Shown here in pieces: positions 1,719-59,725 of a stretch of DNA of 64,000 nt (the stretch's first letter is position 1; every line of letters starts with the position of its first letter). The notes beneath the pieces are model-generated. The model had not been told where the DNA came from. It searched no databases and saw nothing but the letters and a program-made list of their open reading frames with translations. A program made the translations under genes and the position numbers. Origin of the DNA: an uncultured Bacteroidales bacterium (GTDB lineage Bacteria > Bacteroidota > Bacteroidia > Bacteroidales > Bacteroidaceae); contig CACXUA010000007.1 in assembly GCA_902770725.1 (NCBI GenBank), positions 24,165-88,164 on the forward strand, given 5' to 3'.

Positions 1719-1850
1719 ACGGCGTGCCGCGTTCTCAAACATGGTGTGCCGAGTTCTCAAAGATGGCGTGCCAAGTTCTCAAAGATGGCGTGCCATCTTT
1801 GTCAACTTAACACGTTAAGTTTTGCAACTTCACTAGCGTAGTTTTTTGAG
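1719..1850. repeat. 22-bp-period palindromic array 1 (6 units)
   Basis: Six contiguous 22-bp units begin at 1719, 1741, 1763, 1785, 1807 and 1829. Cores are ACGGCGTGCCGC, ATGGTGTGCCGA, ATGGCGTGCCAA, ATGGCGTGCCAT, TTAACACGTTAA and a divergent last unit containing CACTAGCGTAGTT. Spacers resemble GTTCTCAAAG. Bases 1780-1801 form a near-perfect 22-bp palindrome (CAAAGATGGC, GT, GCCATCTTTG). The array lies between the A2M stop and the promoter of the next gene. Confidence 0.9.
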
Positions 1851-1856
1851 GATTGC

Positions 1857-1887
1857 TTGCAAGTTACAAAAAATAGTATTATCTTTG
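1857..1887 (+). promoter_or_regulatory. Bacteroidetes-type promoter for the SGNH esterase gene
   Basis: The -7 element TATCTTTG is at 1880-1887 and a -33-like TTG at 1857-1859, with a 20-bp spacer. It predicts transcription starting about 35 bases before the ATG at 1924 and argues against the earlier in-frame start at 1846. Confidence 0.75.
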
Positions 1888-1923
1888 CAGCGATTATTAA
1901 CAGGATACAATCTTTTCAAACCA

Positions 1924-4900
1924 ATGAAAACGAATCACACATTGTTGGTACTCGCTTTGTTTGCAAGCATGCTGAGTGCTAAGGCACAGACCATCGAACG
2001 TACCTTCTACATCGACTACGGACAGAACAACGTGTCGGGTCAGGGCTTTAAGACTGTCGGAGCCGACAAGAACGGACATTATTGGAACAATATCTTCGGC
2101 AAGGGAACGGGTGCTCCAGACAAAGCCTATCCCCAGACCATCAGTCTCGTTACCTCCAGCAATACGACGACGGATTGCAAGTTGCAGCTCTCGTCGCGTT
2201 TCTCGACGAATGGCTATACCAATGGCGGCTTGCAGAATCCATCGGCTTCGCTGCTTGGTGACCTCGCCATCGAGAGTGCAACGCAAGACTATATCTTCCT
2301 GGAAGGCGGTCAGGACTATGGCGTGATTCATTTCAAGGGACTCGACCTCAGCAAGGGCTACCGCTTCTATATGTTCGGCTCTCGTACTGCAACAGAAACC
2401 AGAGCAGCCTATTTCGACTTGACTGGCGAGAACTGTTGGCGAGAAGAAATGGCGATGTCTGGCACAGGAATAGGCAATGGAGGCTACAACGGCAACAATA
2501 ACAATGTCCTGACCTCAGACATCATCTTCCCAGACAAGAACGGCAACATCGACCTCACCATCATTAAGCGTAGCTCAGGCATCATGGTCTATCTCAATTG
2601 CATGAAGATAGAGGAGGTGTCTGGCGTGGAGCGCCCCAATCAGGAACTCACCTTGACGCAGAAGATGTACTTCGATTTCGGCGAGACCAACAACAATACT
2701 CGCGGACATCAAACCAGCGGAGCAGATGCTAACGGCAATCGTTGGAACAATATCACATCAGGTTCTTCTACCACCAATGCTATCAATGCAAACAAAATCG
2801 TCAGCATCAGGAACAGTGAAAACACTGCTACTGGGGCAAGATTCTATGTTGTGGAGAAGACCTACACCAATGGTGTCGATGCTGGAGGCAATAATAATCC
2901 TACTGCAGACGACCTTGGAGACCTCGCCATAAAGACCGCTACCGAGGACTATGTCTTTACGGATAATGGCGAAGTCCGTTCCTTCAAGATTGCGAAGCTT
3001 AATGTCAACCACTGTTATCGCTTCTTCATTTATGGTTCGAGAAACCATACCGACAATCGTGCAACACTATACAACATCAAGGGTCAGCATACTTGGACCG
3101 GCGGACAAACAACTTCTGGCTCCGACATAGGAGGCGAAGGTTATCACGGCAACCTGAGTAACATCCTCCAGAGCGACTACATCTATCCGGACAAGGATGG
3201 CAACATCGTCATCACTTACCAGCGTGTCTTTGGTATGGCACACATCAATGCGATGCGGATAGAAGAGTACGAGGGCGGAACTCGCCCAGAAGAACCGCTC
3301 GTATTCAGTGGCCTCTCTCTTAGCGGAAATGCGGAAGATGTGACCTTCAAGAAGCTTGAAGATAATGTTTATGAGGCTTATGCCCGTCTCAATGCTGGCA
3401 CTTTCAACTTGATTGGCACAGTGGATGGCGAACCGATTACGCTTTCCAACAATGGCAACGGCACTTTCAGTGTTGAAGGCAGCACGCCATTCTCAGTCGC
3501 TCAAAACTGTGTGGCTCGTATCACAGTCAATACTGCCGGTAACACTTACAGTGTTCTTCCTGTCACGATGAACATTCGTGGCAATATGGGAGCAGGCAGT
3601 CCCGTCATTCCCTACAAGGGTGATGGCGTCTTCGAGGGAGAGGTTACACTTCAGGAAACAGCCTCTCAGCAATGGGTTGACAAGACAATGTACTTCGCCC
3701 TCAACAATGACGATGCCTATGCCATCAAGCGTTTGCAAGGAGCAGCCACACGATATGTGCTCGGAGAAGCAGAGAAGGGACAAAGTGTGGAGAACATCTA
3801 TCAGAACTCTGGCACTTATACCATTACCGTCGATATGAAGAACATGGTGTACGACATCAGTGCTCCAATCGACGAACACCGCATCTCTGTCTTCGGCTCA
3901 TCAGTGGCTAATGGTCAGGGCGCTACAGATTGGAAGGGCTATCGCTACCTTTATGGTCAGCAACTCATCGCTCGCCATAATGAAGGCAGGAGTGCGAACC
4001 CCTTCTATACCACTAATGTCTCTATCGGAGGCAACACAACAACTAACCTCCTGAACCGCTATGACGACCTTATTCGCGACTTTGGCCGTTACGTCATCTT
4101 TGGTCTTTCGCTTGGTAACGAAGGCATTCATGGTGCAAGCAACCAGCAGGCCGTCTTCAATCAATGGCGCGACAATATGCTTTCATTAATAAGAAAGGTA
4201 CGCGCAGACGGGAAGATTCCGATGGTGATGAACAACTATACTCGCAGCGACTACAACGACGATGACTACTATTACGTGAAGCAGCTCAACTTGCTCATCC
4301 ACGAGTGGGATGTTCCTTCGACCAATGTGCTGGGCTCTATCGACAAGGGCAACGGACAATGGGCAGACGGTTATGTTGCCGATACCTATCATCAGAATAC
4401 GGCTGGTCACGCTGAGTTCATGTATGCGATGGTGCCTTCCCTTTACGATGCTCTCAAGGCAGGCAAACCACAACCTGTGCGTAATCGTGCGAAGAGCATG
4501 ACTATCGAAGCTGGTAACGAGATATACTTCGAACCTGAAGAAACAGTTCATCCCTTCACCATCACAGTTCGACTTAAAGGAACAGAGGGACAGGTTGTCT
4601 GCCTTACTCAGGCTTCTGGCACAGAGCAAGCTGTCGTTCGTGTAAATGAAGATGGAACCGTTACCTATACTTCGCCAACAGGTTCGACAATCACTTCTAC
4701 CACGAAGATCAATGATAGCAATTGGCATCACGTCACCCTGACGAGTTATTATGCGCAGCGTCGCACACTTCTCTATGTTGACAAGACAAAGGCTGGCGAG
4801 ATAGGGGAGCGTCTGGCAAAGATAGAGGCCGTCAGCCTTGGCGACGAGAACAATAATCGTGAGGTTAGCGAGTTGTTCTTCTGGCGTTCAGGCATGACAC

Positions 4901-5691
4901 CAGAGGAAGTGACAGCCGTTTGCAATGGCAAGATGCTGAAGTCCAGCCTTGAGGTATATGTACCGCTTGGAGGCATAGCAGACTTGGATAACCTTGCTCA
5001 AAGCACAAACCAGGTCTTCTATGGACCGAAAAAGGCTAAGGAATATGAGCGGGCTGCAGTAGATGTCTTCTTTATGCCGGATGATGGCTCTGCAGGCTTT
5101 AATTCAGGCGAGAACTACGACAAACTCGTTGACGGTAATACTGGGACAAAGTGGTGTCTCAATGGTGGCGAAGGTAATCCTGTGTATGCCATCTTCCACG
5201 CCTCACATCCCATCTATGTGACGGGTTACAAGATTACGACGGCGAATGACAACTCCCAGTACACAGGCCGCAATCCTAAGTCATGGACGTTCTATGGTTC
5301 TACTTCCGACAGCAATCCTGGTGTGAACGATGCCTCTTGGGAGGTAATCGCTTCCGTTACCAACGACACAAAGCTTCAGGATGTGAACTTCACAACTTAT
5401 ACCTATACGCTTCCGTCTGAGACAACGAAGGCTTATCAGAGCTTCAAGTGGGAGGTGACGGCACGCAAGGGCGGTGGCAACAATGTAATACAGGTCTCCG
5501 AGTTCCGTCCTACATATAGCGATGCTGTGGTAGGCGTCCCTCGTCCTGATAGTGATTGGACTGGCATCAACAACCTTAATGTCTTCAATGGCGTTAATGA
5601 TACCATCTATAATCTTTCAGGTCAGCGTTTGGCAAAAATGCAAAGAGGCATAAACATCAGTCAGGGAAAGAAGATCTTAAATGGTAAATGA
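1924..5691 (+). CDS. Secreted multidomain SGNH-hydrolase/esterase with LamG and F5/8C-like domains
   Basis: A 1255-residue protein. The start at 1924 gives a signal peptide ending near SAKAQ and fits the promoter at 1880. Residues ~24-230 and ~245-450 are two copies of an unnamed beta-rich module (both begin Y-D-Y/F-G and contain GYRF/CYRF and YGSR/FGSR). A SusE/F-like stretch follows. Residues ~654-840 look like an SGNH hydrolase: FGSSVANGQGA (nucleophile block), GLSLGNEG, and DTYHQNTAGH (catalytic Asp/His block). A LamG-like domain (~855-1010) and an F5/8 type C-like domain (~1045-1195) follow, then a tail YNLSGQRLAKMQRGINIS of the Prevotella C-terminal signal type. It probably deacylates a glycan at the cell surface; the substrate is unknown. 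The next gene overlaps its last 11 bases. Confidence 0.8.
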   Translation: MKTNHTLLVLALFASMLSAKAQTIERTFYIDYGQNNVSGQGFKTVGADKNGHYWNNIFGKGTGAPDKAYPQTISLVTSSNTTTDCKLQLSSRFSTNGYTNGGLQNPSASLLGDLAIESATQDYIFLEGGQDYGVIHFKGLDLSKGYRFYMFGSRTATETRAAYFDLTGENCWREEMAMSGTGIGNGGYNGNNNNVLTSDIIFPDKNGNIDLTIIKRSSGIMVYLNCMKIEEVSGVERPNQELTLTQKMYFDFGETNNNTRGHQTSGADANGNRWNNITSGSSTTNAINANKIVSIRNSENTATGARFYVVEKTYTNGVDAGGNNNPTADDLGDLAIKTATEDYVFTDNGEVRSFKIAKLNVNHCYRFFIYGSRNHTDNRATLYNIKGQHTWTGGQTTSGSDIGGEGYHGNLSNILQSDYIYPDKDGNIVITYQRVFGMAHINAMRIEEYEGGTRPEEPLVFSGLSLSGNAEDVTFKKLEDNVYEAYARLNAGTFNLIGTVDGEPITLSNNGNGTFSVEGSTPFSVAQNCVARITVNTAGNTYSVLPVTMNIRGNMGAGSPVIPYKGDGVFEGEVTLQETASQQWVDKTMYFALNNDDAYAIKRLQGAATRYVLGEAEKGQSVENIYQNSGTYTITVDMKNMVYDISAPIDEHRISVFGSSVANGQGATDWKGYRYLYGQQLIARHNEGRSANPFYTTNVSIGGNTTTNLLNRYDDLIRDFGRYVIFGLSLGNEGIHGASNQQAVFNQWRDNMLSLIRKVRADGKIPMVMNNYTRSDYNDDDYYYVKQLNLLIHEWDVPSTNVLGSIDKGNGQWADGYVADTYHQNTAGHAEFMYAMVPSLYDALKAGKPQPVRNRAKSMTIEAGNEIYFEPEETVHPFTITVRLKGTEGQVVCLTQASGTEQAVVRVNEDGTVTYTSPTGSTITSTTKINDSNWHHVTLTSYYAQRRTLLYVDKTKAGEIGERLAKIEAVSLGDENNNREVSELFFWRSGMTPEEVTAVCNGKMLKSSLEVYVPLGGIADLDNLAQSTNQVFYGPKKAKEYERAAVDVFFMPDDGSAGFNSGENYDKLVDGNTGTKWCLNGGEGNPVYAIFHASHPIYVTGYKITTANDNSQYTGRNPKSWTFYGSTSDSNPGVNDASWEVIASVTNDTKLQDVNFTTYTYTLPSETTKAYQSFKWEVTARKGGGNNVIQVSEFRPTYSDAVVGVPRPDSDWTGINNLNVFNGVNDTIYNLSGQRLAKMQRGINISQGKKILNGK

Positions 5692-6532
5692 GAAATGGTT
5701 CACTGTGGCTGGCGAGCCAGCAGTGGTGACAGCGGCACGCAAGAAGATCCTCGGCGAGTTCGAGGACCTCGAGTTTTATCCTGAAGGTCATCGTTATGTT
5801 TTGCACGACAAGACGCTGCCTTCTGTGTCGAATGTTACCCATTGTTTCATCCGTGAGCCTTTCAATGAGCAGTTGCAGGCAAGGCGTTATGCCGAGAAGC
5901 GTGGCCAGACTGCTGAGTATTGGATACAGCAATGGCGGCAGAACTCTTTCCGAGCCACAACCCTTGGCACTAAGACGCATGCTTATGGAGAGAGCCTTGG
6001 CTATCTCAGAGCAGGAATGCCAGAACGAATCTGCCCTTCCATGCAGAGGCAATACATGCCTCAGTACGGCTTCCTTGCTCCTATTCATCCAAAGGAAGAG
6101 GCTGTGCTCAAGTTCATGAACGAGATGCCGAACAGTATGCATCTTGTCCTTAATGAGGCACAAGTGTATAGTGGCAAGAATCCTTCCAAGGAGCGAAACC
6201 TCAAGCAGCAGCTTGCTGGCACCTTCGATATGCTTTATTACAACGACGGAAGCGACGGCCAGCCAGCAGGCTTCATGGTGCTCGACTATAAGACCAACGC
6301 CAATCTTGCCAACGAATACAATCGCCGCTTTGGTCGAGTGCTCAGTTCTCCCTTTGCAGATATGACAGAGGAAGACCTCTCGCTCTACACCATACAGCTC
6401 AGCCTCTATGCTCTCATGCTCGAAGACATTGGCATACCCATCATCTCTCGCCGCATCATCTGGCTTAAAGACGGAGAGTATGAAGCCATTCCTGTCCCCG
6501 ATGTCTCCGAGAAACTAAGGCAGATCCTATGA
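5681..6532 (+). CDS. RecB-like PD-(D/E)XK nuclease-superfamily protein
   Basis: 283 residues, not annotated by any named pathway I recognise. The motif order fits the RecB/Cas4-type PD-(D/E)XK fold: GTKTHAYGE (H100), Glu159 in LNEAQVY, GTFD (D183), LDYKT (D202, K204) and QLSLYALML (Q239-xxx-Y243). The N-terminal ~90 residues are family-specific (FYPEGHRYVLHDKTLPSVSN). It starts inside the last codons of the esterase gene (11-base overlap in another frame), so it is probably co-transcribed. No helicase or Cas gene is adjacent, so the role is unknown; a DNA-repair or phage-derived nuclease is possible. Confidence 0.75.
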   Translation: MVNEKWFTVAGEPAVVTAARKKILGEFEDLEFYPEGHRYVLHDKTLPSVSNVTHCFIREPFNEQLQARRYAEKRGQTAEYWIQQWRQNSFRATTLGTKTHAYGESLGYLRAGMPERICPSMQRQYMPQYGFLAPIHPKEEAVLKFMNEMPNSMHLVLNEAQVYSGKNPSKERNLKQQLAGTFDMLYYNDGSDGQPAGFMVLDYKTNANLANEYNRRFGRVLSSPFADMTEEDLSLYTIQLSLYALMLEDIGIPIISRRIIWLKDGEYEAIPVPDVSEKLRQIL

Positions 6533-6566
6533 TAACTCTCAACTCTCAACTCTTAACTCTTAACTA
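6533..6566. repeat. 8-bp leader microsatellite (CTCTCAA/CTCTTAA)
   Basis: About four degenerate copies of AACTCTCA/AACTCTTA fill the gap between the nuclease-like gene and the start of the J-domain gene at 6571. The complement (GTTAAGAG) is the same word seen upstream of the TonB receptor at 61048. Confidence 0.75.
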
Positions 6567-6570
6567 ATAA

Positions 6571-6984
6571 ATGTCTTGCCTGCTTAACTTTCGACTCATC
6601 TTTGCCCTTATAGGTTGGCGAATGGGAGGAGGTCGTGGACTCATCCTCGGCTTCCTGCTGGGCTGGCTGCTCGATTCTATGTATCGGCGCCCCACCATTC
6701 ACTTTACCTACCAGAAAGGCACGGACGACTTCTCTGGCTACCAGAAAGAGGAGCACGAGTGGCAGCCATATGTCGATGTAACTTTGCAGGAAGCCTATCG
6801 GACCCTTGGCATACGCGAGACTGCCACAGACGACGAGGTGCGGCAAGCCTATCGTGAGTTGGCTCTTCGCTATCATCCTGATCGGGTCGAGGCACAAGGC
6901 GAAGCAGCCAAAGAAGAAGCTGAAAAGAAGTTTCGCGAAGTGACGGAGGCACGCGACATCATCTTTCGCGCACGAGGCATATAA
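6571..6984 (+). CDS. Membrane-anchored J-domain (DnaJ-like) protein
   Basis: 137 residues. Residues ~6-32 are hydrophobic and Gly-rich (GGGRGLILGFLLGWLL), a likely membrane anchor. Residues ~68-137 are a J domain: LGIRETATDDEVRQAYRELA, then YHPDR containing the invariant HPD (near 102-104), then KKFREVTEARDII. The J domain at the C-terminus resembles DjlA-type co-chaperones, which stimulate DnaK ATPase at the membrane. It follows the nuclease-like gene after a microsatellite spacer and may share its transcript. The co-chaperone role is inferred from the HPD motif. Confidence 0.85.
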   Translation: MSCLLNFRLIFALIGWRMGGGRGLILGFLLGWLLDSMYRRPTIHFTYQKGTDDFSGYQKEEHEWQPYVDVTLQEAYRTLGIRETATDDEVRQAYRELALRYHPDRVEAQGEAAKEEAEKKFREVTEARDIIFRARGI

Positions 6985-7104
6985 TTTTAATAAGGTATAA
7001 GCACAAGAAAACATAAAAAACAGACAAAACGAGGCATTTTTAAGGTTTTTCTTCATTTAAGGCCAACTTTTTTTGAGAAAAGATGAAAAAAAAAGTAAAA
7101 AAGT

Positions 7105-7135
7105 TTTGGTGGTTATGAAAAAAGCACTAAATTTG
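7105..7135 (+). promoter_or_regulatory. Promoter for the cohesin/dockerin-like gene pair
   Basis: -7 element TAAATTTG at 7128-7135, -33 TTTG at 7105-7108, spacer 19 bp. The leader to the ATG at 7182 is about 42 bases. Confidence 0.75.
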
Positions 7136-7181
7136 CAGCAGAAAACTATAAAAACAACATTAATAACAAAATCTAAGTTTT

Positions 7182-7865
7182 ATGAAAAAGAGAATTTTAC
7201 TTTCTTTGGTGTCATTCTTTGTTATGACAGCCATGTGGGCAACTATTGCCGAGAAGTATCAGATGTATGTAACAGCTGATGCTAATGGTAAGGTTGGTGA
7301 AACAGCAACTCTCACTTTGAACATGAAGAACCAGAACTTCCCCGCTATGTGGAAGTGTATAGTTGCTCTTCCTGAGGGCGTTACTTATGTAGACGGTACT
7401 ATCGCTGCTGCAGGTGCTCGCTATCCCGAAGGCTCTAACCCAGAATTTTCTGCTACTGTTAATTCAGATGGTACTATTACTTTCCAAGGCTGGACTTCTA
7501 CAGGTGTAGCTATGACAAACACTGATGGTGTTGTCGCTACTTTCGATGTAGCTGTTGCAGGTGATGTAACTCCTGGTGATTATGAAGTTGTCGTTAACAG
7601 CTCTCTGCTTACTGAAGTTGGCGGTACAACTCACCAGTGGACTACTCCCAATCCTTTCACTTGGACTATCGAAGAAGGCACAACTCCTGGCCTTCGTGGT
7701 GACGTGAATCTTGATGGTTCAGTTGATATCGCTGACGTAGTAGAAGTTCTTGCTTTGATGGCTGCTGATACAGATCCTGTTGGAAGCCCTGGTGATGTAA
7801 ATGCCGACGGCGTTATTGATATTGCTGACGTAGTAGAAGTTTTGTCTATTATGGCTGCTCAATAA
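7182..7865 (+). CDS. Secreted cohesin-like protein with a C-terminal type I dockerin
   Basis: 227 residues. A signal peptide (MKKRILLSLVSFFVMTAMWA) is followed by a beta-rich cohesin-like domain (~22-160; note ALPEGVTYVDG). After a Thr/Pro linker, residues ~169-227 form a type I dockerin: two calcium-loop repeats, GDVNLDGSVDIADVVEV (~170) and GDVNADGVIDIADVVEV (~203). Dockerins bind cohesins to build surface enzyme complexes; here both folds are in one protein. The next gene, 50 bases downstream, encodes another protein with the same cohesin-like start, so they may interact. The fold of the N-terminal domain is inferred from pattern. Confidence 0.85.
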   Translation: MKKRILLSLVSFFVMTAMWATIAEKYQMYVTADANGKVGETATLTLNMKNQNFPAMWKCIVALPEGVTYVDGTIAAAGARYPEGSNPEFSATVNSDGTITFQGWTSTGVAMTNTDGVVATFDVAVAGDVTPGDYEVVVNSSLLTEVGGTTHQWTTPNPFTWTIEEGTTPGLRGDVNLDGSVDIADVVEVLALMAADTDPVGSPGDVNADGVIDIADVVEVLSIMAAQ

Positions 7866-7915
7866 TAATCCTTTTACTAATATTAAGTATAACCAATTAA
7901 TAAATTCAAATCACA

Positions 7916-8605
7916 ATGAAAAAGTTTTACATGACAATGGTTGCTCTGCTGTGCGGTGTTGCAGCAATGGCACAAGATGGTGATGGCCTGTATGTTAACG
8001 ACATTAAGGTGGACAAGGGCGCAACTAGCGTAACTATTCCTGTTTGCTTGAAGAACAGCATTTATGTAAGTTCAATCTCCTTCCGTATTGATCTTCCCGA
8101 AGGTGTTACTATTAAAGTAAGCAAGGGTAAGTTGCAGAATTATACGCTCAATTCTGATCGTGCTGATGGATATTCTGTTGAATATCAGAAGGTGAATGGT
8201 TTAAATGGAGGACAGATTGCTGTATTTAGCACATATCCTTTCGATTTAAATGATGGTCCAATTATTAATATTGATGCAGCTATCTCAGAGGAAGTGGCCG
8301 CTGTAGATGGAACCTATCCAGTTGCTTTGACAGCTATTGGTTATGCAGCACCAAAAGTTCCTGCTGATGAGGTAGGAGACTTCGACGGTATCGAAGAATA
8401 TAATGATGGCCGTTCCTATGTTGTAAGTGGCGAGATGACCAAAACGGAAACATCTTTCACTCTGACTATTGGTGATGGTACTGGCATCAACAGCATCAAT
8501 GCTGAGGACAGCAAGGCTCCCGTTTACAACGTAGCTGGCCAGCGCGTAAGCAAGGCTCAGAAGGGCGTTTACATCCAGAACGGTAAGAAGGTTGCTGTTA
8601 AGTAA
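7916..8605 (+). CDS. Secreted cohesin-like domain protein with Prevotella-type C-terminal tail
   Basis: 229 residues. A signal peptide (cleavage near AAMAQ) precedes a beta-rich domain with DLPEGVTIKVSKG, similar in layout to the neighbouring dockerin protein (both have 'LPEGVT' after a CLKNS/LNMKN strand). The last ~27 residues (YNVAGQRVSKAQKGVYI, then GKKV) match the C-terminal motif frequent in secreted Prevotella proteins, thought to be a sorting signal, though the machinery is not proven. No dockerin is present. It ends at a strong terminator, so this and the upstream gene form a two-gene unit. Confidence 0.75.
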   Translation: MKKFYMTMVALLCGVAAMAQDGDGLYVNDIKVDKGATSVTIPVCLKNSIYVSSISFRIDLPEGVTIKVSKGKLQNYTLNSDRADGYSVEYQKVNGLNGGQIAVFSTYPFDLNDGPIINIDAAISEEVAAVDGTYPVALTAIGYAAPKVPADEVGDFDGIEEYNDGRSYVVSGEMTKTETSFTLTIGDGTGINSINAEDSKAPVYNVAGQRVSKAQKGVYIQNGKKVAVK

Positions 8606-8630
8606 TCATTCTCTCAGCCTAAATACTTAA

Positions 8631-8657
8631 GTCTCCGATTCGTCGGAGACTTTTTTT
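8631..8657 (+). terminator. Rho-independent terminator after the cohesin-like pair
   Basis: A perfect 8-bp stem GTCTCCGA / TCGGAGAC (8631-8638, 8643-8650) closes a TTCG tetraloop and is followed by seven Ts. Confidence 0.95.
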
Positions 8658-8681
8658 ATCCATACAATTTAATATAAAAAG

Positions 8682-8769
8682 ATGGCACGCCAAGTTCTTC
8701 AACTTAACGTGCCATCTTTGCGAACTTAACGTGCCATCTTTGCCAACATGGCACGCCGAGTTTTTTGGG
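8682..8769. repeat. 22-bp-period palindromic array 2 (4 units)
   Basis: Units begin at 8682, 8704, 8726 and 8748. Cores are ATGGCACGCCAA, TTAACGTGCCAT (twice, a hybrid of the TTAA and CCAT half-sites) and ATGGCACGCCGA. The array sits between convergent genes, after the terminator at 8631. Confidence 0.9.
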
Positions 8770-8823
8770 GGTCTATACCTCTTTGCTCAAGGTATTAGTA
8801 TTCTTTGTTCGAAGGGTCTGCCT

Positions 8824-9732
8824 TTATGCTTCTTCCCACTGCTTGCGGAGCAGCTCAACTGCTGCAGGCTGGACTGTCTTCGGGTCGCCTTCGCAGCCGC
8901 ATTCGAAGCTGACGAAACCTTGATAGCCAAGTTCCTTGAGGGCACGGAAACCATCGCGATAGTTGTCCTTCTCGCCGTCCTCGCCTGGCGTCTTGCGCCG
9001 TCCGCGGCTGGCAATGTGTACGTGCTGCAAGTATTCCGTGCCTGCAGCCATGAAGGCAGCATAGTCGGAGGTCTCTTCCTGCATGTGCCAGAAGTCGCCC
9101 ATGCACTTCACGCCCTTGCTGTCGGCATCGCGAGCAATGGCAGCTGCATCGGCAACGAGTCGCATGTAGAAGCACTCGCCACGGTTCAGGGGCTCAAGGA
9201 TGACGGTCGTTCCGCATTGAACTGCGAACTCACCCAATTCGTGAAGCTGCTCGCAAAGGTAGTTGCGGGTGTCCATGGTGTGGGGACGACAAGGCTGCTG
9301 ACCGTTGAAGGCAGGTACCATGATGACGCCGCAAGAGTTAATCTTGCCTGCAGCCTCGATGATTTCGCGCATCGTGCGGTCGAACTCGTCCTTCTGTCCA
9401 TCCTCTGCAAGAATGAATCCGTCGAAGCCGGCACAGATGGCAGCCATGCGCACGTTACGTCCCTTGAGGGCATTGTTTATCTCGTCCACACGACCGGCCA
9501 AGCCGCGTCCGCCCACCTCGAAGCCTGTTACGCCCAGACTCTCGCAGTAGTCTAGCTTCTCCTGAAGTGTGTCGCCCAGAGCGATGCCTTCCTGAAAGCA
9601 GAGGTTGAGGGGTGTGTTTGCACCTTTCTTCTCGTCCTTCTTAGGGGCACAAGAAGCCAGCATCGTGCTGGGGGCCAGCGCAGCCGCAGCTGCACCGGCC
9701 ATAGAGCTTATAAGGAAATTACGTCGTTGCAT
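8824..9732 (-). CDS. Exported sugar isomerase/epimerase-like TIM-barrel protein
   Basis: 302 residues. The N-terminus MQRRNFLISSMAGAAAAALA has a twin-arginine-like or lipoprotein signal (Cys at 28 in LASCAP). The rest matches the xylose-isomerase-like TIM barrel (AP endonuclease 2 superfamily). Likely metal ligands are E180 (ILEPLNR), D213 and H216 (GDFWHM), H239 (HVHI) and E277 (SFECG). Members act as sugar isomerases, epimerases or, in 3-keto-glycoside pathways, as lyases. It is the last gene of the minus-strand operon, 56 bases after a Gfo/Idh/MocA oxidoreductase, which supports a role after sugar oxidation. The exact reaction is inferred. Confidence 0.8.
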   Translation of the reverse strand: MQRRNFLISSMAGAAAAALAPSTMLASCAPKKDEKKGANTPLNLCFQEGIALGDTLQEKLDYCESLGVTGFEVGGRGLAGRVDEINNALKGRNVRMAAICAGFDGFILAEDGQKDEFDRTMREIIEAAGKINSCGVIMVPAFNGQQPCRPHTMDTRNYLCEQLHELGEFAVQCGTTVILEPLNRGECFYMRLVADAAAIARDADSKGVKCMGDFWHMQEETSDYAAFMAAGTEYLQHVHIASRGRRKTPGEDGEKDNYRDGFRALKELGYQGFVSFECGCEGDPKTVQPAAVELLRKQWEEA

Positions 9733-9735
9733 TAT

Positions 9736-9765
9736 TTTAGTGGTTAGAGGTTAGAGGATAGTATG
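9736..9765. repeat. Leader microsatellite upstream of the TIM-barrel gene
   Basis: On the coding (minus) strand the gap before the start at 9732 reads as degenerate copies of CCTCTAA/CTCTAAC. The same word family (CCTCTAAC, CCTCTCAC) precedes the Wza-like gene at 36290. Confidence 0.65.
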
Positions 9766-9788
9766 GGAAGATGAGACCTCTGAGTTCT

Positions 9789-11132
9789 TTAGTTCCCAGG
9801 CACTGGCACAGTCATCGATGCCAGATCGAGGGGGCCAAGCTCAAGTTTCTCGGGCAGGAAGTCCTGCGGCGACTGTGTCATCTCGTCCCATGTGACGGTC
9901 TGACCTGTGTAGGCAGCTTCGCGACCCATGATGCCTGCCATGCAAGAGATGGCGTTGTCTGTTGCCTCCTCGTGGGCTGTGCCCTTGCGGATGTGGTTCA
10001 CCCAATCCACATGCTCCAGTGTGTAGGGGTCGAACTGCTGGAACTCCTTGCGGACAGCTTCCTCGTCGAACTTCCAGATGACGTTGCCATCGAGGTCCTT
10101 TATCTCGTTTGTCTCGCTGTCCCAGCTGCCCTTTGTGCCCTGGATGAACTCACTCACCTTGCTGCTGCAACCGTCAATCTGGCGGCACATCGAGTGCATG
10201 TGGATGCCGTTCTCCATCGTGAAGTCGGTGCTAAAGAAGTCATACTGGTCGCCCGTTACGCGGCGCTGGCGTGAGCCGAATGCTGTTGCGCAGACGGGCT
10301 TCAAGCCGCTCATCCAGAGGAAGACGTCGATGTTGTGGACGTGCTGCTCGATGATGTGGTCGCCCGAGAGCCACTTCCAGTTCACCCAGTCGCGGATGTT
10401 CCATTCCATGTCTGTCCAGCCGGCCTCGCGCTGACGATACCACAGCATGCCCTGGTTCCAGTAAACATTGCCGCCGGTAATCTCACCGATGAGTCCTGCC
10501 TGTATCTGCTTGTTGGCCTCCACGTAGCGACGCTCGTGGTGACGCTGCGTGCCGACTACGACGCTCAAGCCCTTTGCCTGAGCCTGCTTGGCAGTTGCCA
10601 TAACGGAACGATAGCCTTTGGCATCAACGCAGATGGGCTTCTCGAGGAAAGAGTGCACGCCCTTCTCTGTGGCGTACTTGAACATCTCGGGGCGGAAGAC
10701 GGGAGGCGTGGTGAGGATAACCATATCGACACCAGCGTCGATGACCTGCTTGTAGGCATCAAATCCGATGAAGCAGTTCTCCTGAGGAACCTCCTGCCCA
10801 CGCTCGTTGATGAGACGGTTGCGAACGTCGTTCAAGCGGTCTTCGAAGACATCGCCCAAAGCCACGACCTTGATGTTGTCGGCAGCGTCAAGCAGGTTGA
10901 TGATGGCACCGCTTCCGCGACCGCCACAACCGATGAGGCCAACCTTCAGCTCCGGTCCGTCGATGGCCTTATCGGGGAGTTCGGGTACATAGTATTCGCC
11001 TTCCTTCTTGAGGGGCGTAAGTTTCTCTTTGCCAGAGCAACTGGCAAGGATTGCGGGAGCAGCCACAGCAGCGGCTCCAACAGCAGCAGCGCCAGTCAGA
11101 AAGCGGCGTCTGCTCATTCCTTCTTCTTTCAT
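9789..11132 (-). CDS. Tat-type Gfo/Idh/MocA family oxidoreductase
   Basis: 447 residues; a second in-frame ATG at 11117 (MSRRRFLTG) may be the true start. The N-terminus carries SRRRFLTGAAAVGAAAVAA, a clear twin-arginine signal, with SCSG nearby as a possible lipoprotein site. The NAD(P)-binding motif GLIGCGGRGSG is at ~65-75 and the EKP signature of the family at ~164-166. Tat export suggests the protein folds with its nicotinamide cofactor before export. Family members oxidise sugars, cyclitols or glycosides, often at C3. Its operon partners are a cytochrome-type protein upstream and a TIM-barrel isomerase/lyase downstream. The substrate is unknown. Confidence 0.85.
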   Translation of the reverse strand: MKEEGMSRRRFLTGAAAVGAAAVAAPAILASCSGKEKLTPLKKEGEYYVPELPDKAIDGPELKVGLIGCGGRGSGAIINLLDAADNIKVVALGDVFEDRLNDVRNRLINERGQEVPQENCFIGFDAYKQVIDAGVDMVILTTPPVFRPEMFKYATEKGVHSFLEKPICVDAKGYRSVMATAKQAQAKGLSVVVGTQRHHERRYVEANKQIQAGLIGEITGGNVYWNQGMLWYRQREAGWTDMEWNIRDWVNWKWLSGDHIIEQHVHNIDVFLWMSGLKPVCATAFGSRQRRVTGDQYDFFSTDFTMENGIHMHSMCRQIDGCSSKVSEFIQGTKGSWDSETNEIKDLDGNVIWKFDEEAVRKEFQQFDPYTLEHVDWVNHIRKGTAHEEATDNAISCMAGIMGREAAYTGQTVTWDEMTQSPQDFLPEKLELGPLDLASMTVPVPGN

Positions 11133-11135
11133 ATC

Positions 11136-11170
11136 TTTATGGGTTTTATGGGGTTAATAAGTTTAATAGG
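11136..11170. repeat. Leader microsatellite upstream of the oxidoreductase gene
   Basis: Degenerate copies of TTTATGGG and GTTTAATA fill the 40-base gap before the oxidoreductase start (coding strand reads CCCATAAA). It belongs to the start-codon-proximal repeats of this window. Confidence 0.6.
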
Positions 11171-11172
11171 CT

Positions 11173-13097: not shown

Positions 13098-13105
13098 TCG
13101 GTGTC

Positions 13106-13218: not shown

Positions 13219-13227
13219 AAACTCCTA

Positions 13228-13235
13228 CAAAGATA
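13228..13235 (-). promoter_or_regulatory. Promoter of the cytochrome/oxidoreductase operon
   Basis: CAAAGATA on the plus strand is TATCTTTG (-7 element) on the minus strand. It predicts a start near 13222, giving a leader of about 125 bases made almost entirely of array 3. Confidence 0.65.
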
Positions 13236-13321
13236 GCAAAAAAAGTGTTATGTTGTAACGCAAACCCTATACATTTATATATAAAAAGCAGAAAAGGTTT
13301 CTTTTTTAACATAAATTGTTG

Positions 13322-49705: not shown

Positions 49706-49829
49706 GAAAGAGACTCCAAAGACTGTGGAATTACATGCCATAAAGAACACTAATAAAGATATTTAATCGTTTTATTATATATCTTTTTCCATATAAACGA
49801 CTTCGATGCAAAAAAGCATCTTGAAAAAC

Positions 49830-49939
49830 GACCCTAAGGTAAATCGCAAACTTAACGTGTCATCTTTGCAAACTTAACGTGTTAAGTTGAGCAACTTAAC
49901 GTGCCATCTTTGCAAACATGGCGTGCCACGTTTGGGGAT
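49830..49939. repeat. 22-bp-period palindromic array 8 (5 units)
   Basis: Units begin at 49830 (degenerate), 49852, 49874, 49896 and 49918. Cores are TTAACGTGTCAT, TTAACGTGTTAA, TTAACGTGCCAT and ATGGCGTGCCAC; most spacers end in GCAAAC or GCAAC. Confidence 0.9.
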
Positions 49940-52663: not shown

Positions 52664-55570
52664 ATGAAGACAAGACTACTTTTGGCATTCCTGCTTTCGA
52701 TAGTTGCAGGTTTGCAGTCGATGAGAGCACAAGAGGCCTACGCTTGCTATACTTCAGGGAACACCACGCTGACTTTCTACTATGACAATCTGCGCAGCAG
52801 CCGTTCAGGTACGACTTATGACCTGAATGCAGACTACCTTCCAGACTGGTACACTGACGGCACCAAGACCAATGTTACCAAGGCGGTCTTTGACACTTCG
52901 TTCGCTAATGCCCGCCCGACGTCAACTTATGGTTGGTTTGCTGAAATGGCGAATCTTCAATCCATCGAGGGAATGGAATACCTGAACACCAGCGAGGTAA
53001 CAACTATGTATGGAATGTTTTATTATTGTCCTTCTTTGACGAGCCTTAACCTGAGCCACTTCAATACCTCCAAGGTAACCTCTATGTATGCAATGTTTTA
53101 TAGTTGTGAATCTTTGACGATCCTTGACGTGAGCAGTTTCAATACGTTCAAGGTAACCAATATGTATCTCATGTTCATTTACTGTTTTAGCTTGAAGACT
53201 ATTTATGTAGGTAGTGGCTGGAGCACGGCTGCCGTGACGAGTTCAGATTATATGTTCTATGACTGTACGCGCCTTATAGGCGGTCAGGGCACAACCTATG
53301 ATGAGAACCACGTAGATGCCAGCTATGCTAATGTTGATGGCGGCACAAGCAACCCAGGCTATTTCACAGATAAGAATACCCCTTATGCTTGCTATACTTC
53401 AGAAAACACCACGCTGACGTTCTATTGTGATAATCTGCGCAGCAGTCGTACAGGCGTAACTTATGATCTGAATTATGGTAATGATGCTCCAGCCTGGTAC
53501 GATGACGGCATCAAGGCCAGTGTTACCAAGGTTGTCTTTGATGCGTCATTTGCGGAGGCCCGTCCTACGTCAACCATAGGTTGGTTTTTTCAAATGGAGA
53601 ATCTTCAATCCATCGAGGGAATGGAATACTTGAACACCAGCGAGGTGACAAATATGACTAACATGTTCCACGGCTGTGAATCTCTGACAAACCTTGACGT
53701 CAGCCATTTCAATACGGGCAAAGTAACCAGAATGTGGGGCATGTTCCAGTGGTGCCGTGCTTTGACGAGCCTCGATTTGAGCAGTTTCAATACGTCCAAG
53801 GTAACCAACATGAGTCACATGTTCTATGCTTGCCAGTTATTAAAAACCATTTATGTGGGCAACGGCTGGAGTACGGCAGCTGTGACTGATTCTGAAAAGA
53901 TGTTCTATTTATGCACCAGTATTGTTGGTGGCGCAGGCACAAAATACATTGGAGTGCGTGTAGATGCAAGATATGCCCATATCGATGGCGGCACAAGCAA
54001 CCCGGGCTATTTCACGGGTAAGAATGCCCTTTGTGCTTATGCCTGCTATACTTCTGAGAACACGACGCTGACCTTCTACTACGACAATCTGCGCGACAGT
54101 CGTTCAGGCACGACTTACAGCCTGAATTCAGGTACAGACTATCCAGGTTGGAAATTCGATGGCACTAATGCCAATGTGACTAAGGTGGTCTTTGACACTT
54201 CGTTCGCTAATGCCCGCCCGACGTCAACCTATGATTGGTTTGGTGTAATGGAGAACCTTCAATCCATCGAGGGAATGGAATACCTGAACACCAGCGAGGT
54301 AACCAATATGGGAGAAATGTTTAATGGTTGTGCTTCTTTGGCGAGCCTCGACTTGAGCAGCTTCAATACGCGCAAGGTAAATGTGATGAGTCGGATGTTC
54401 TATGCTTGTACTTCTTTGACGAGTCTCGACGTTAGCAGTTTCAATACATCCAATGTGACCAATATGGCTGAAATGTTCTATGGTTGCATTGGTTTGACGG
54501 GCCTCGACTTGAGCAGCTTCAATACAAGCAAGGTGGGCAATATGCACCAAATGTTTTATTACTGTATGGCCTTGAAAACCATTTATGTGGGCAACGGCTG
54601 GAGTATAGCATATGTGACTGATTCTGAATGGATGTTCTTGGAGTGCACCAGTATTGTTGGTGGCGCAGGCACAGTATATACAGGAGTGCGTGTAGATGCC
54701 AGCTATGCCCATATCGATGGCGGCGGCAACAATCCTGGCTATTTAACAGACGTGAATTCTGTTGTTTTAGACCTGTGGATTGCAGACATACAAGTGACAG
54801 GAGCGAACAAGAACGATCTAACTGAACTTGTCGCAGAAATGGACGAAGAGGCAATGGAGCGTTACTATGGGGGAGTAATGGAAATAACCTTTAATTTCGG
54901 AAGTAATACGCTTACACTCAAGGATGCTATCATCAGACCAGAAACAGGAGCGTTTGGCATTATGTCGAGGATGCAAAACCTGAATATAAAGCTGATAGGA
55001 GAGAATACCATTGCCGCTACCGATGCATTGAGCGTGAACCTGCAGAGAAATTCAGGCAAAGGCGTTACAACCTTCATTGGCAATGGCTCGCTTGATATTA
55101 CGTCGAACTCGAACTCGGGAGCATTCAGTACCGTCCGCGATATCGTAATAAAAGACGGAGCAAAGATAACGGTAGAAGGTACAGGCGACCTTGGTTTCCA
55201 AGGAAGTCCAGTAATGAGTGGAGGAAATGGTCCGAAGCTGACTCTGCAAGGCGCGGAAACCGTCCTAAGGGCAAAAGGCGGTTCGAGCGGTTCGTTGGTT
55301 GGCTTCAGTGCCCTGTACATGGGCAACACCATAAAAATCATTGAACCTGTAGGCGCAGCATTCATCGCAAACCGGGGCGTCGTCATGAACGGCTCTATTG
55401 TCGCTAACGAATGGGTAATGATAGCCGACCAAGACTACATCGACGGCGTAGAAGACGTTAACGTTGACCTTAACCTTAACGACTCTTGGTACGACCTCCA
55501 AGGCCGCAAAGTCATGAATCCACGAAAGGGTATCTACATCAAGAATGGTAAGAAGGTCTTGGTGAAGTAA
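52664..55570 (+). CDS. BspA-like (DUF285) repeat surface protein
   Basis: 968 residues with a signal peptide (ending near SMRAQ). Three large repeats of ~215-235 residues (~25-238, ~239-458, ~459-694) each hold DUF285-type leucine-rich units (NMSHMFYAC, LTSLDLSSFNTSKV) ending in a Gly/Tyr block (DGGTSNPGYFT). The third repeat has an extra unit. Residues ~695-930 are a separate beta-helix-like domain (NTLTLKDAII, LNIKLIGENTI). The C-terminal tail (YDLQGRKVMNPRKGIYI, then GKKV) is the Prevotella sorting-type motif. BspA relatives bind host matrix proteins; whether this one does is unknown. DNA of the three repeats shares long identical stretches. Confidence 0.88.
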   Translation: MKTRLLLAFLLSIVAGLQSMRAQEAYACYTSGNTTLTFYYDNLRSSRSGTTYDLNADYLPDWYTDGTKTNVTKAVFDTSFANARPTSTYGWFAEMANLQSIEGMEYLNTSEVTTMYGMFYYCPSLTSLNLSHFNTSKVTSMYAMFYSCESLTILDVSSFNTFKVTNMYLMFIYCFSLKTIYVGSGWSTAAVTSSDYMFYDCTRLIGGQGTTYDENHVDASYANVDGGTSNPGYFTDKNTPYACYTSENTTLTFYCDNLRSSRTGVTYDLNYGNDAPAWYDDGIKASVTKVVFDASFAEARPTSTIGWFFQMENLQSIEGMEYLNTSEVTNMTNMFHGCESLTNLDVSHFNTGKVTRMWGMFQWCRALTSLDLSSFNTSKVTNMSHMFYACQLLKTIYVGNGWSTAAVTDSEKMFYLCTSIVGGAGTKYIGVRVDARYAHIDGGTSNPGYFTGKNALCAYACYTSENTTLTFYYDNLRDSRSGTTYSLNSGTDYPGWKFDGTNANVTKVVFDTSFANARPTSTYDWFGVMENLQSIEGMEYLNTSEVTNMGEMFNGCASLASLDLSSFNTRKVNVMSRMFYACTSLTSLDVSSFNTSNVTNMAEMFYGCIGLTGLDLSSFNTSKVGNMHQMFYYCMALKTIYVGNGWSIAYVTDSEWMFLECTSIVGGAGTVYTGVRVDASYAHIDGGGNNPGYLTDVNSVVLDLWIADIQVTGANKNDLTELVAEMDEEAMERYYGGVMEITFNFGSNTLTLKDAIIRPETGAFGIMSRMQNLNIKLIGENTIAATDALSVNLQRNSGKGVTTFIGNGSLDITSNSNSGAFSTVRDIVIKDGAKITVEGTGDLGFQGSPVMSGGNGPKLTLQGAETVLRAKGGSSGSLVGFSALYMGNTIKIIEPVGAAFIANRGVVMNGSIVANEWVMIADQDYIDGVEDVNVDLNLNDSWYDLQGRKVMNPRKGIYIKNGKKVLVK

Positions 55571-57590: not shown

Positions 57591-57595
57591 AAGAG

Positions 57596-59458
57596 GTGGT
57601 TTCATACTTACAGGTACAGAATCTGACGCGAAGTGTGGGGGACAAGACGCTTTTCCGCGACCTCAGCTTCAGCATCGGCGAAGGGCAGAAGGTGGGTCTT
57701 ATCGCCAAGAACGGAACAGGCAAAAGCACGCTCCTGAACATCCTTGGCGGCAAGGACCAGGCAGACGAAGGGCAAGTCGTCTTCCATAATGACCTTCGCA
57801 TCGGTTACCTGGAGCAGACCCCTAACTATCCCCTCGACCTGACTGTCATCGAGGCTTGCTTCTGGCACGGCAACGAGACGACCAACCTTATCCGTGAGTA
57901 CGAGACCTGCATGGCTTCCGCAAGTCAGGAAGGCCTGCAAGACATCCTCGACCGCATGGAACAACTGAAGGCTTGGGACTACGAGAATCGCGCCAAGACC
58001 ATCCTCTCGCAGCTCTTCATCAAGGAGTTCGACAAGCCGCTCTCTCAACTTTCAGGAGGCCAGTTGAAGCGTGTCGCCCTCGCCAATACGCTCATCATGG
58101 AGCCTGACCTGCTCATCCTCGACGAGCCGACGAACCACCTCGACTTGCAGATGATTGAGTGGCTCGAGAACTATCTGTCGCGCTCCAACGTTACGCTCCT
58201 TATGGTCACGCACGACCGCTACTTCCTCGATCGTGTTTGTTCCGTCATTCTTGAACTTGACGAAGAGACGGTTTACACCTATCAGGGCAACTATGCCTAC
58301 TTCCTCGAACATCGTGCCCAACGCCTCGAAGTGGCTCGGGCTGAGGTTGCGAGGGCCACGAACCTCTACAGGACGGAACTCGACTGGATGCGGCGAATGC
58401 CTCAAGCCAGAGGGCATAAAGCAAGGTATCGCGAGGAAGCGTTCTACGAGTTGGAGAAGCAAGCCCATCGCCGCATCGAGGAGCAGCAGGTCAGGCTCGA
58501 GATGAAATCGACCTACATCGGCAGCAAGATATTCGAGGCCGAATATGTGAGCAAGGCTTATGGCGACCTCGTCTTGCTCAAGGACTTCTACTATAACTTC
58601 TCGCGCTATGAGAAGCTCGGCATCGTGGGCAATAACGGCACAGGCAAGAGCACTTTCGTCAAGATGCTGCTCGGACTGGTGAAGCCCGATAGCGGACGTT
58701 TCGTCGTAGGCGAGACCGTGCGTTTCGGCTATTACAGTCAAGATGGAATGGCGTTCAACGAGCAGATGAAGGTGATTGATGCAGTTCGCAAGACCGCAGA
58801 ATATGTCGATTTGGGAGGCGGCAGGAAACTCTCCGCCATGCAGTTCCTGCAGCACTTCATGTTCTCGCCCCAACAACAGCAGAACTACATCTACAAGCTT
58901 TCTGGAGGCGAGAAGCGCAGGCTCTACCTCTGTACCGTGCTCATGCAAAGCCCCAACTTCCTTGTCCTCGACGAGCCCACGAACGACCTCGACATCACTT
59001 CTCTGCAGATTCTGGAGCAATACCTGCAGGACTTCAAGGGCTGCGTCATCATCATCAGCCACGACCGCTACTTCATGGACAAGGTTGTGGACCATCTCTT
59101 CGTCTTCAAAGGCAACGGCGTCGTGAAGGACTTCCCAGGCAATTATACGCAGTACCGAGAGTGGGAGAAGTTGGAACCCGAGCCCAAGAAGGCTCAGAAT
59201 ACTCAGAACAGTCCGAGTACTCCGAGATTTCAGGGAGAGAGAAAGCGCAAGATGTCTTTCCGCGAGAAGCAGGAGTTCGAGGCTCTCGGAAAGGAAATAG
59301 ACGAGCTGGAGAACGAGAAAGCCGACATCGAGGCAGCCCTCAGTAGCGGTACCCTAAGCACGCAGGAAATAATCGACCTCAGCAAACGCCTGCCCGTAGT
59401 CAACGATTTGCTAGACGAGAAATCTATGCGTTGGCTCGAACTCAGCGAGATAGAGTAG
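57596..59458 (+). CDS. ABC-F family ATPase (Uup-like)
   Basis: 620 residues, GTG start. Two ABC domains on one chain with no membrane segment: Walker A AKNGTGKSTLLN and GNNGTGKSTFVK, signatures LSGGQLKRVALA and LSGGEKRRLYLC, Walker B LLILDEPTNHLD and FLVLDEPTNDLD. The C-terminal ~70 residues form a charged coiled coil (FREKQEFEALGKEIDELENE), as in Uup. ABC-F proteins act on the ribosome, in translation or antibiotic resistance, or in DNA metabolism. Nothing points to a resistance subtype. Confidence 0.92.
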   Translation: MVSYLQVQNLTRSVGDKTLFRDLSFSIGEGQKVGLIAKNGTGKSTLLNILGGKDQADEGQVVFHNDLRIGYLEQTPNYPLDLTVIEACFWHGNETTNLIREYETCMASASQEGLQDILDRMEQLKAWDYENRAKTILSQLFIKEFDKPLSQLSGGQLKRVALANTLIMEPDLLILDEPTNHLDLQMIEWLENYLSRSNVTLLMVTHDRYFLDRVCSVILELDEETVYTYQGNYAYFLEHRAQRLEVARAEVARATNLYRTELDWMRRMPQARGHKARYREEAFYELEKQAHRRIEEQQVRLEMKSTYIGSKIFEAEYVSKAYGDLVLLKDFYYNFSRYEKLGIVGNNGTGKSTFVKMLLGLVKPDSGRFVVGETVRFGYYSQDGMAFNEQMKVIDAVRKTAEYVDLGGGRKLSAMQFLQHFMFSPQQQQNYIYKLSGGEKRRLYLCTVLMQSPNFLVLDEPTNDLDITSLQILEQYLQDFKGCVIIISHDRYFMDKVVDHLFVFKGNGVVKDFPGNYTQYREWEKLEPEPKKAQNTQNSPSTPRFQGERKRKMSFREKQEFEALGKEIDELENEKADIEAALSSGTLSTQEIIDLSKRLPVVNDLLDEKSMRWLELSEIE

Positions 59459-59549
59459 GGAGCAGGCTACCTCATCATCAAAGACTTAGTGGCTCGTCAG
59501 CAGACAAAGAACCGGTCAAAACTATTGACCAGTCGTGTTCCTGTCTGTC

Positions 59550-59725
59550 ATGGCGTGTTTCGTTGGGCAACAAAGGCAGTAGAATCGGGCAAGTTAACGT
59601 GCATAGTTGGGCAACTTAACAGGGGTCGTGACGTTTTGGCGGCCGCCAAAAGAATTCACGGCGGCCGCCAAAAATATCCGTAGCGCTCGCCAAAAATATT
59701 TACGGCGGCCGCTAAAAACCTAATT
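59550..59725. repeat. 22-bp-period array 9 (8 units) that changes core from CGTG to GGCGGCCGCC
   Basis: Units begin at 59550, 59572, 59594, 59616, 59638, 59660, 59682 and 59704. The first four have the ATGGCGTG/TTAACGTG type core and GTTGGGCAAC spacer; the last four have GGCGGCCGCC or AGCGCTCGCC cores and an AAAAATATTTAC-type spacer. The register is kept across the change. Confidence 0.9.

Follow-up and report, generated by a model that had tools for sequence, protein, structure and literature searches.

Why should nine separate gaps between genes in one stretch of bacterial DNA carry short tandem arrays that look different from one another and all advance by exactly 22 bp? This question is raised by a 64,000-nucleotide stretch of an uncultured Bacteroidales bacterium of the family Bacteroidaceae (contig CACXUA010000007.1 of assembly GCA_902770725.1, positions 24,165 to 88,164), which was analysed at its full length and is called the window below. 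Its source is a metagenome-assembled genome, G000 (2.26 Mb, 134 contigs, 80.6% complete), whose closest relatives with named records are rumen and gut assemblies. The arrays were examined in the window, in further stretches of G000 and in related genomes, and we favour the reading that they are dispersed, clustered, operator-like sites read by a putative fast-evolving DNA-binding protein, to which a probability of roughly 0.45 is given.

A 22-bp Period in the Window, the Genome and Its Relatives

All nine arrays, numbered A1 to A9 along the window, were confirmed by a lag scan, in which autocorrelation was computed in 66-bp windows at lags 8 to 59 and at least 38 matches were required. Nine loci were detected at lag 22, seven at lag 44, and at most two at any other lag, which leaves lag 22 with its harmonic of 44 as the sole strong period of the window. 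Tandem Repeats Finder reported eight arrays with a 22-bp unit, and called 26889–26973 with a 44-bp unit. The sample of G000 was enlarged to 455 kb by 391 kb of other stretches. In the 391 kb alone (threshold 40), lag 22 gave 57 loci, lag 44 gave 38, and any other lag from 9 to 49 gave at most six; in the combined sample (threshold 36), 75 loci were obtained at lag 22 as against 0–3 at each of ten other lags. Measured against other lags, this excess runs counter to the refuting condition set by a first-pass annotation of the window, that the period be no commoner than expected. The density of about one lag-22 locus per 6 kb is biased upward and represents an upper estimate, because the stretches were mostly chosen from contigs with array matches. 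A set of 43 inter-array distances along G000 contigs, the rep locus described below included, averaged 6.4 kb with a coefficient of variation of 0.53, which, without a null comparison, supports no claim.

Besides other lags, related and outgroup genomes served as the comparison. In 400 kb from 20 near genomes, 28 lag-22 loci were found in 13 of the genomes, and 400 kb from 20 farther ones gave 15 loci in 11 genomes; the next most frequent lag, 44 aside, was 21, with nine and seven loci, respectively. Two relatives were sampled more deeply from contigs chosen in the same way as for G000, yielding 33 lag-22 loci in 243 kb of G071 and 39 in 259 kb of G052; both sets contain overlaps of 5–6 kb, so that some gaps and arrays are counted double (two arrays in G071). 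A further 71 loci (L018–L088, 1.27 Mb) came from records titled Prevotella, Paraprevotella, Bacteroidaceae and the like, their family membership being taken from those titles. Lag 22 ranked first there with 33 loci in 24 of the 71; its harmonic 44 came next (18 loci), then two lags with 17 each, and some of these lag-22 loci are disguised shorter repeats (e.g., 11 bp in L074). Absence from any single genome refers to the 20 kb examined in each: L012 and L009, apparent counterparts of G012 and G073, which scored none in 20 kb, show one array each. Two lag-22 loci, both in one locus, came from 395 kb of 20 order-level genomes, of which one belongs to the same family, and none came from 400 kb of 20 class- or phylum-level genomes. 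Because the counts are high in the genus and near zero in the order and phylum outgroups, the 22-bp arrays are concentrated in Prevotella-related bacteria, being densest around G000.

Rigid Spacing and Anatomy of the Units

One degenerate motif accounts for 52 of the 75 loci in G000, so the widely differing cores emphasized by the first-pass annotation are mostly variants of a main family, although minor families do share the same lattice. The main-family site spans 20 bp with firm positions AA-N5-C-RY-G-N5-TT and is followed by a 2-bp linker. In 178 of 186 cases, the 22-bp unit is composed of two 11-bp half-sites inverted about an asymmetric CGTG/CACG centre. The centres of these 186 units, drawn from 48 arrays, are CACG (90), CGTG (88), CCTG (3), TGTG (2), CATG (2), CACA (1) and CGCG (0); the position matrix gives the four RY centres near-equal scores, yet CATG and CGCG are almost absent. 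The GT/AC centre also dominates in G005, G008, G036, G052, G054 and G071. Scanning with the position weight matrix yielded 230 sites in the 455 kb of G000 against 24 in the reversed sequence, while singletons numbered 37, little above the control's 24. Candidate DNA uptake sequences were rejected because of this near-background number of singletons; uptake sequences are genome-wide motifs with lineage dialects, often near gene ends, and differ from the present sites, which stand in arrays.

The spacing of these units is rigid. Main-family neighbours closer than 44 bp were 22 bp apart in all 138 pairs, and within 150 bp the spacings were 22 (138), 44 (5), 88 (3) and 122 (1). Between neighbouring units, an average of 6.0 of the 22 bases are different (824 differences in the 138 pairs), for which the intergenic indel-to-substitution ratio of 0.046, measured against the sister genome G005, predicts about 38 indels if the differences arose by in-place mutation and the intergenic class, which includes unannotated genes, is taken as the reference; none was seen. 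Array DNA aligned between G000 and G005 (453 bp) held 29 substitutions and two gaps, one in a T run at the A2 edge and one where A5 holds different families, with A1, A3 and A6 gap-free. The skeleton AA-N5-CRYG-N5-TT, counted in pairs up to 60 bp apart and with G035 left out, recurred at 22 bp 99 times in G000, 8 in G005, 5 in G008, 1 in G036, 13 in G052, 13 in G071 and 1 in G089. No pair at any spacing up to 60 bp was found in the farther, family, order or phylum sets. As a separate observation, lag 21 is the second commonest short period in the 20 near genomes (L169–L188; nine loci), where the skeleton is also found paired at 21 bp twice.

Consecutive units per main-family array numbered four in 19 arrays, five in 12, three in eight, two in seven and six in two, so that 31 of the 48 hold four or five; arrays of other families and species are sometimes longer. 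Half-sites are drawn from an alphabet of TTAAG, CCATC, CCGCG, CCATG and others, and many units are mixtures such as TTAACGTGCCAT. Array edges are A/T-rich, many arrays opening with AAAAC and closing with GTTTT, and in a number of them an outer unit carries CTAG, GCAG or CTGC in place of CGTG. The minor families on the lattice include CCCTATAGGG, CCCACSGTGGG, TATTCATGA, GCGGCCGC and TACATGTA, some units of which sit in phase within main-family arrays. Other arrays of G052 (L231 12140, L244 481 and 19417, L248 18546, L251 15759) repeatedly contain, internally or at their margin, a block of two or three TACATGTA units (AGATACATGTATGTATAATTA) that is frequently flanked by GTTCGTTAT or ATAACGAAC and is possibly a nested unit that holds the 22-bp phase. 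The lattice may be broader than the AA..CRYG..TT motif, as is hinted by L052 (Prevotella sp.), where 20 kb contain four 22-bp arrays (1539–17918) of four unrelated, non-palindromic units without CGTG.

Near-palindromic units had been proposed as the defining feature, and this did not hold. In a cyclic-reflection test on consensus units, the arrays that attained p ≤ 0.05 numbered 17 of 66 in G000, 10 of 28 in the near genomes, 3 of 15 in the farther ones and 6 of 33 in L018–L088; palindromy was rejected as the common denominator of the arrays on account of this minority. At four of five positions, arm complementarity within main-family units equalled that of within-array shuffles; complementarity was similar across the linker (0.59–0.64), where a unit hairpin would not form, to that within the unit (0.63–0.67). 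There is thus no arm pairing beyond array-level similarity in the main family, in a test whose power is limited because units of one array resemble each other. The palindromic look arises mainly because half-sites come from one alphabet and the units of one array are alike.

Species Dialects in Conserved Gaps

Among seven close relatives, counting cases with both flanks recovered, a lag-22 array occupied the gap of A1 in 5/6, A2 in 7/7, A3 in 5/7, A5 in 4/5 and A6 in 7/7; the A4 gap was not mappable in most relatives, and that of A7 could be mapped in only a few. The score of G035 at A2 was best at lag 22 owing to a second, different 22-bp repeat beside the array, a direct repeat GGCAATAGTATTCTTTGCACGA of about five copies (L217), which carries a TAnnTTTG-like promoter motif. 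The pyrK–pyrD gap that harbours A6 also holds an array in L010, L012 and L014, and is only 6–19 bp long, without an array, in three farther genomes. In a wider genus sample, a lag-22 array was found downstream of the zinc-ribbon gene in 8 of 29 genomes (G005, G008, G036, G052, G053, G071, G089, G090) and upstream of asnA in 6 of 29, being of the GCGGCCGC kind in G035 and G036. The units at such a shared position are rewritten. Downstream of the zinc-ribbon gene they read GGCGTGCC in G000, CCCCTATAGGGCGTTG in the sister G005, TTAACGTGTTAA in G008, CGTATAGTGTGAC in G089 and G071, ATCACGTGGGTAAAAT in G036 and CCCCGCGTGCGGCG in G052, with different ones in G053 and G090. Period and layout are therefore conserved more than sequence in G000 itself, as the first-pass annotation had stated, and from one species to another as well.

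Within a genome, units at separate loci resemble each other. A comparison of 34 units, taken at five loci in eight genomes, gave an average similarity of 14.12 of 22 bases between loci of one genome, 12.82 between orthologous arrays and 11.74 otherwise; one unit, that of G035 at A2, was dropped because its best 22-mer was the promoter-like repeat. When genome labels were permuted within loci, a mean of 12.09 (standard deviation, sd, 0.25) was obtained and 14.12 was reached in 0 of 2000 runs, likewise 0 of 2000 without G005 and G089, which tests genome-specific likeness and not an excess over orthologous arrays. The number of units varies between species by whole units (G000 and G005 at A2; 143 versus 165 bp among relatives at A6), which indicates that copying of 22-bp units occurs. 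A copying process suggested earlier is upheld to this extent; alone it does not explain exact spacing and matching dialects at unlinked loci. Such whole-unit changes are also what functionless minisatellites would give, in which slippage duplicates units and the 22-bp step descends from an early founder or a polymerase bias. Slippage, however, would not favour a single period in sequences that are unrelated, within one clade but scarcely in outgroups, would not keep the spacing free of indels or fix a CGTG/CACG centre, and would not match dialects at unlinked loci, and we regard plain minisatellites as improbable.

Placement Relative to Genes

Two arrays of the window lie in co-directional gaps: A1 (1714–1845; five CRYG units and an outer unit with a CTAG core) lies between a bMG10 gene and a GDSL-lipase gene, and A4 (19658–19767; five units containing CACGTG) between trmO and a DUF3667 gene. 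A third co-directional gap, between an ABC-F gene and asnA, holds A9 (59550–59725), in which two unit families are joined in phase, decayed CRYG units (59550–59637) being followed by four GGCGGCCGCC-type units (59638–59725). Convergent gaps contain A2 (8677–8764; four CRYG units), which is preceded by an ordinary terminator-like hairpin, A7 (38955–39042; TCGACACGTCGA-type units), which is present in G005 too, and A8 (49825–49934; four CRYG units and an outer CCCTAAGG unit). A3 (13106–13218; CCCCTATAGGGG family) occupies a divergent gap between a 137-residue open reading frame (ORF) on the minus strand and glycogen synthase on the plus strand. A5 (26888–26975; four GGCGTGCC/GGCACGCC units) lies downstream of the zinc-ribbon gene and is preceded by a terminator-like hairpin, and A6 (31445–31554; TTAACGTGTTAA units) lies between pyrK-like and pyrD genes. 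Genes were called by a home-made codon-usage script, which misplaced at least one gene of the window (glycogen synthase, 13692–14912, on the wrong strand). Two other repeats of the window were set apart. A dispersed element of about 150 bp beside A7 (39162–39320) is not a 22-bp array; partial copies of it are numerous in G035 and occur in G005 and G052 as well, and other stretches of G000 gave two short partial matches to it. The second repeat consists of 78-bp tandem units (52995–53167 and 54293–54544) within an ORF of 968 residues (52664–55570), which encodes a repeat protein.

Counting gaps of at least 120 bp in G000, arrays were present in 18 of the 22 between convergent genes, in 31 of the 64 between co-directional genes and in 4 of the 31 between divergent genes. 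Six lag-22 loci at a rep/parA locus were dropped from this table as possible iterons; the other 69 comprised 58 in gaps between called genes and 11 elsewhere. The corresponding counts were 6/13, 20/34 and 2/11 in G071 and 8/16, 20/39 and 4/11 in G052. Over 74 cases, arrays lay a median of 50 bp from a gene 3′ end; for 5′ ends, the median over 50 cases was 141 bp. Motif orientation showed no preference in co-directional gaps, being with transcription in six, against it in five and unassigned in nine of G071, and with it in six, against it in four and unassigned in ten of G052. A strand-specific role was rejected for this absence of preference, and no candidate for an autoregulated gene was seen in the array-bearing divergent gaps.

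Proximity to 3′ ends raises the question of RNA hairpins, that is, bidirectional terminators or mRNA stabilisers at transcript ends, with which the A/T-rich edges, the strongly palindromic nature of some units and an arm complementarity above global shuffles would agree. This complementarity is explained by the likeness of units within an array and is about as high across the linker, as far as a test of that power can tell, and many units combine unlike half-sites. Moreover, the arrays lack an orientation preference, separate terminator-like hairpins stand beside A2 and A5, A6 is placed between pyrK and pyrD, and an Rfam search of the window gave no match at the gathering score. RNA hairpins, which the arm-pairing test does not support for the main family, are hence quite improbable, slightly more so than minisatellites. 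pyrK and pyrD are normally co-transcribed, and a complete block of transcription at the arrays is unlikely, because A6 lies between them.

Comparison with Known Repeats

The main rival is a selfish repeat resembling repetitive extragenic palindromes (REPs) or miniature inverted-repeat transposable elements (MITEs), whose non-autonomous units would be copied between gaps by a putative enzyme other than RAYT, the REP-associated tyrosine transposase, forming lineage families as in REPIN-RAYT pairs. REPs lie mostly in co-directional and convergent gaps in the available text of the published account (PMC3733652), and the avoidance of divergent gaps here is of the same kind. Genome-specific families in many copies, the AAAAC and GTTTT ends of many arrays and the array-free pyrK–pyrD gaps of three relatives (6–19 bp) also favour copying. 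As far as that account describes REP, BIME (bacterial interspersed mosaic element) and REPIN sequences with their GTAG and CGTC tags, the arrays are like them in being short, intergenic, numerous, grouped in lineage-specific families and similar in gap preference, and unlike them in forming a rigid 22-bp tandem lattice, in lacking arm pairing beyond array similarity, and in keeping orthologous positions while the units turn over (PMC3733652). No fixed tag was detected, GTAG/CTAC occurring at any position in 6 of 230 sites and CGTC/GACG in 30 of 230.

The candidate enzymes do not track the arrays. Y1_Tnp (RAYT, PF01797) was matched in 40 of 101 genus genomes, including G035 with one match; G000 (itself 80.6% complete), G005 and G008 gave no match, and G036, G052, G071 and G089 are not among the genomes listed with one. 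Serine recombinase (PF00239) was matched in 16 of the 101 genomes, none of them G000, G005, G008, G035, G036, G052, G071 or G089. Serine-recombinase crossover sites, considered for the asymmetric central dinucleotide, were rejected on that distribution. Together with the presence, across many species, of arrays with altered units in the same gaps, the near-background singletons and the 22-bp phase kept by mixed-family arrays, which is not expected from insertion, this makes a REP- or MITE-like repeat unlikely. The earlier view that these are not ordinary REPs agrees with the lack of a Y1_Tnp match in G000 and of arm pairing beyond array-level similarity. Nor are they CRISPR, as had been said, since the units follow one another with just a 2-bp linker and are repeated over all of their 22 bp, with no unique spacers.

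A 22-bp step is also reminiscent of iterons of Rep_3 plasmids, which are helically phased direct repeats near 22 bp bound by the initiator. Six of the 75 G000 loci lie at such a locus (L093 11072–16600, contig C3), where a Rep3_N initiator gene (501 residues) and a divergent ParA gene stand among ordinary genes with several 22-bp arrays between and beside them (12568–13886 and 16346–16480), one with a CCCTATAG core that resembles a dispersed family. This region looks like a plasmid-type or chromid-type origin, and its six arrays may be true iterons. For the dispersed arrays, sites of a Rep_3 initiator or its partition partner are very unlikely and were rejected, as the initiator gene does not co-vary with them: Rep3_N was found in 23 of 101 genomes with at most two matches each, occurs in four genomes without a lag-22 locus in 20 kb (G012, G047, G073, G086), and was not matched in G036 or G089, which carry arrays. 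Unlike iterons, moreover, the arrays stand at many dispersed loci and consist of inverted half-sites.

The nearest described element in the order, on the available text of its description, is BrickBuilt, a MITE of Porphyromonas gingivalis with a 23-nt unit of one sequence family, 19 copies, up to 22.8 units, and a leader and tail with IS5-like terminal inverted repeats (PMC4596501). It likewise belongs to Bacteroidales, is intergenic, occupies many loci and consists of tandem units of about two helical turns; the same text mentions 22-nt tandem repeats in P. gingivalis W83, without exact locations (PMC4596501). As regards a comparable leader and tail, inspection of the array flanks by eye showed nothing in common besides the short AAAAC/GTTTT edges and variable outer units. 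Neighbouring arrays with a 23-bp period, as in BrickBuilt, were observed in Paraprevotella/Prevotellaceae relatives (L026 11233–11468, L030 9512–9742). With the terms chosen, a search of the openly accessible literature listed no publication describing a 22-bp intergenic lattice conserved in Prevotella or Bacteroidaceae.

A Proposed Operator-Like Lattice

The spacing is rigid, the half-sites are inverted about a fixed centre, positions are conserved, and dialects match throughout the genome; taken together, these features point to a drifting trans-acting protein with a side-by-side 22-bp geometry. The protein, its binding as a dimer and its role are what we infer from this geometry, from the bias in placement and from the turnover of units at conserved positions. 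Each main-family unit would be one site of two inverted 11-bp half-sites, and in each array, usually close to where a transcription unit ends, two to six adjoining sites would be bound by a putative DNA-binding protein. As the sequences preferred by this protein drifted by lineage, the sites would change with them where they stand, and every genome would come to have a dialect of its own while the lattice stayed the same, so that the arrays of each species may follow their own putative DNA-binding protein. Copying between arrays, by conversion or a transposase, may act together with binding. We think that marking or organising of transcription-unit boundaries at the DNA level would be a likelier role than termination. 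The side-by-side protein binding proposed by the first-pass annotation thus stands as the favoured explanation, with no protein found to go with it.

Several observations weigh against the operator-like reading. No candidate gene for an array-binding protein was found, Y1_Tnp, Rep3_N and resolvase not tracking the arrays, and the similarity of units within a genome could stem from conversion or transposition between arrays. A symmetric dimer gives no reason for an asymmetric centre, and this centre is not universal, AT equalling or exceeding it in frequency in G035 and G020. Minor families that lack CGTG, and arrays of relatives without CGTG or palindromy such as those of L052, need further proteins or a more general cause. 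The lattice has exceptions, with one skeleton pair each at 37, 43 and 59 bp in G000 and one at 43 in G036, and, beside pairs on the lattice at 22 (2) and 44 (1), with pairs at 21 (2) and 42 (1) in 13 other near genomes. Arm complementarity exceeded the global shuffle at three of five positions and, slightly, the within-array shuffle at one of five (0.629 versus 0.580, sd 0.020). The bias in placement is weaker in G071 and G052 than in G000, and fits neutral insertion away from promoters too. Finally, at pyrK–pyrD, G052 keeps the array of G000 though most of its other arrays use another dialect, which indicates that dialect replacement is incomplete.

Implications

As a rule, the interspersed repeats of bacteria form families of related sequence that are linked to a transposase. 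In the arrays described here, geometry outlives sequence: the step stays at 22 bp and the gap is often still occupied, while the unit is rewritten to match the rest of the genome. It is possible, if rather doubtful, that they constitute a new class of chromosomal element, a genome-wide lattice of protein sites near transcription-unit ends whose code is rewritten per lineage at unlinked loci with positions and geometry fixed, and hence a fast-coevolving system of chromosome organisation or boundaries in Prevotella-related bacteria. The lag-22 scan combined with the AA-N5-CRYG-N5-TT skeleton provides a search image for these elements in Prevotella-related gut bacteria. If a protein is behind the arrays, it would act globally as a DNA-binding factor whose code drifts; extrapolated from the 230 counted in one fifth of the genome, its sites would number perhaps a thousand. 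Such a factor, if real, would make it possible to follow in bacteria the joint change of a recognition code and the sites that it reads.

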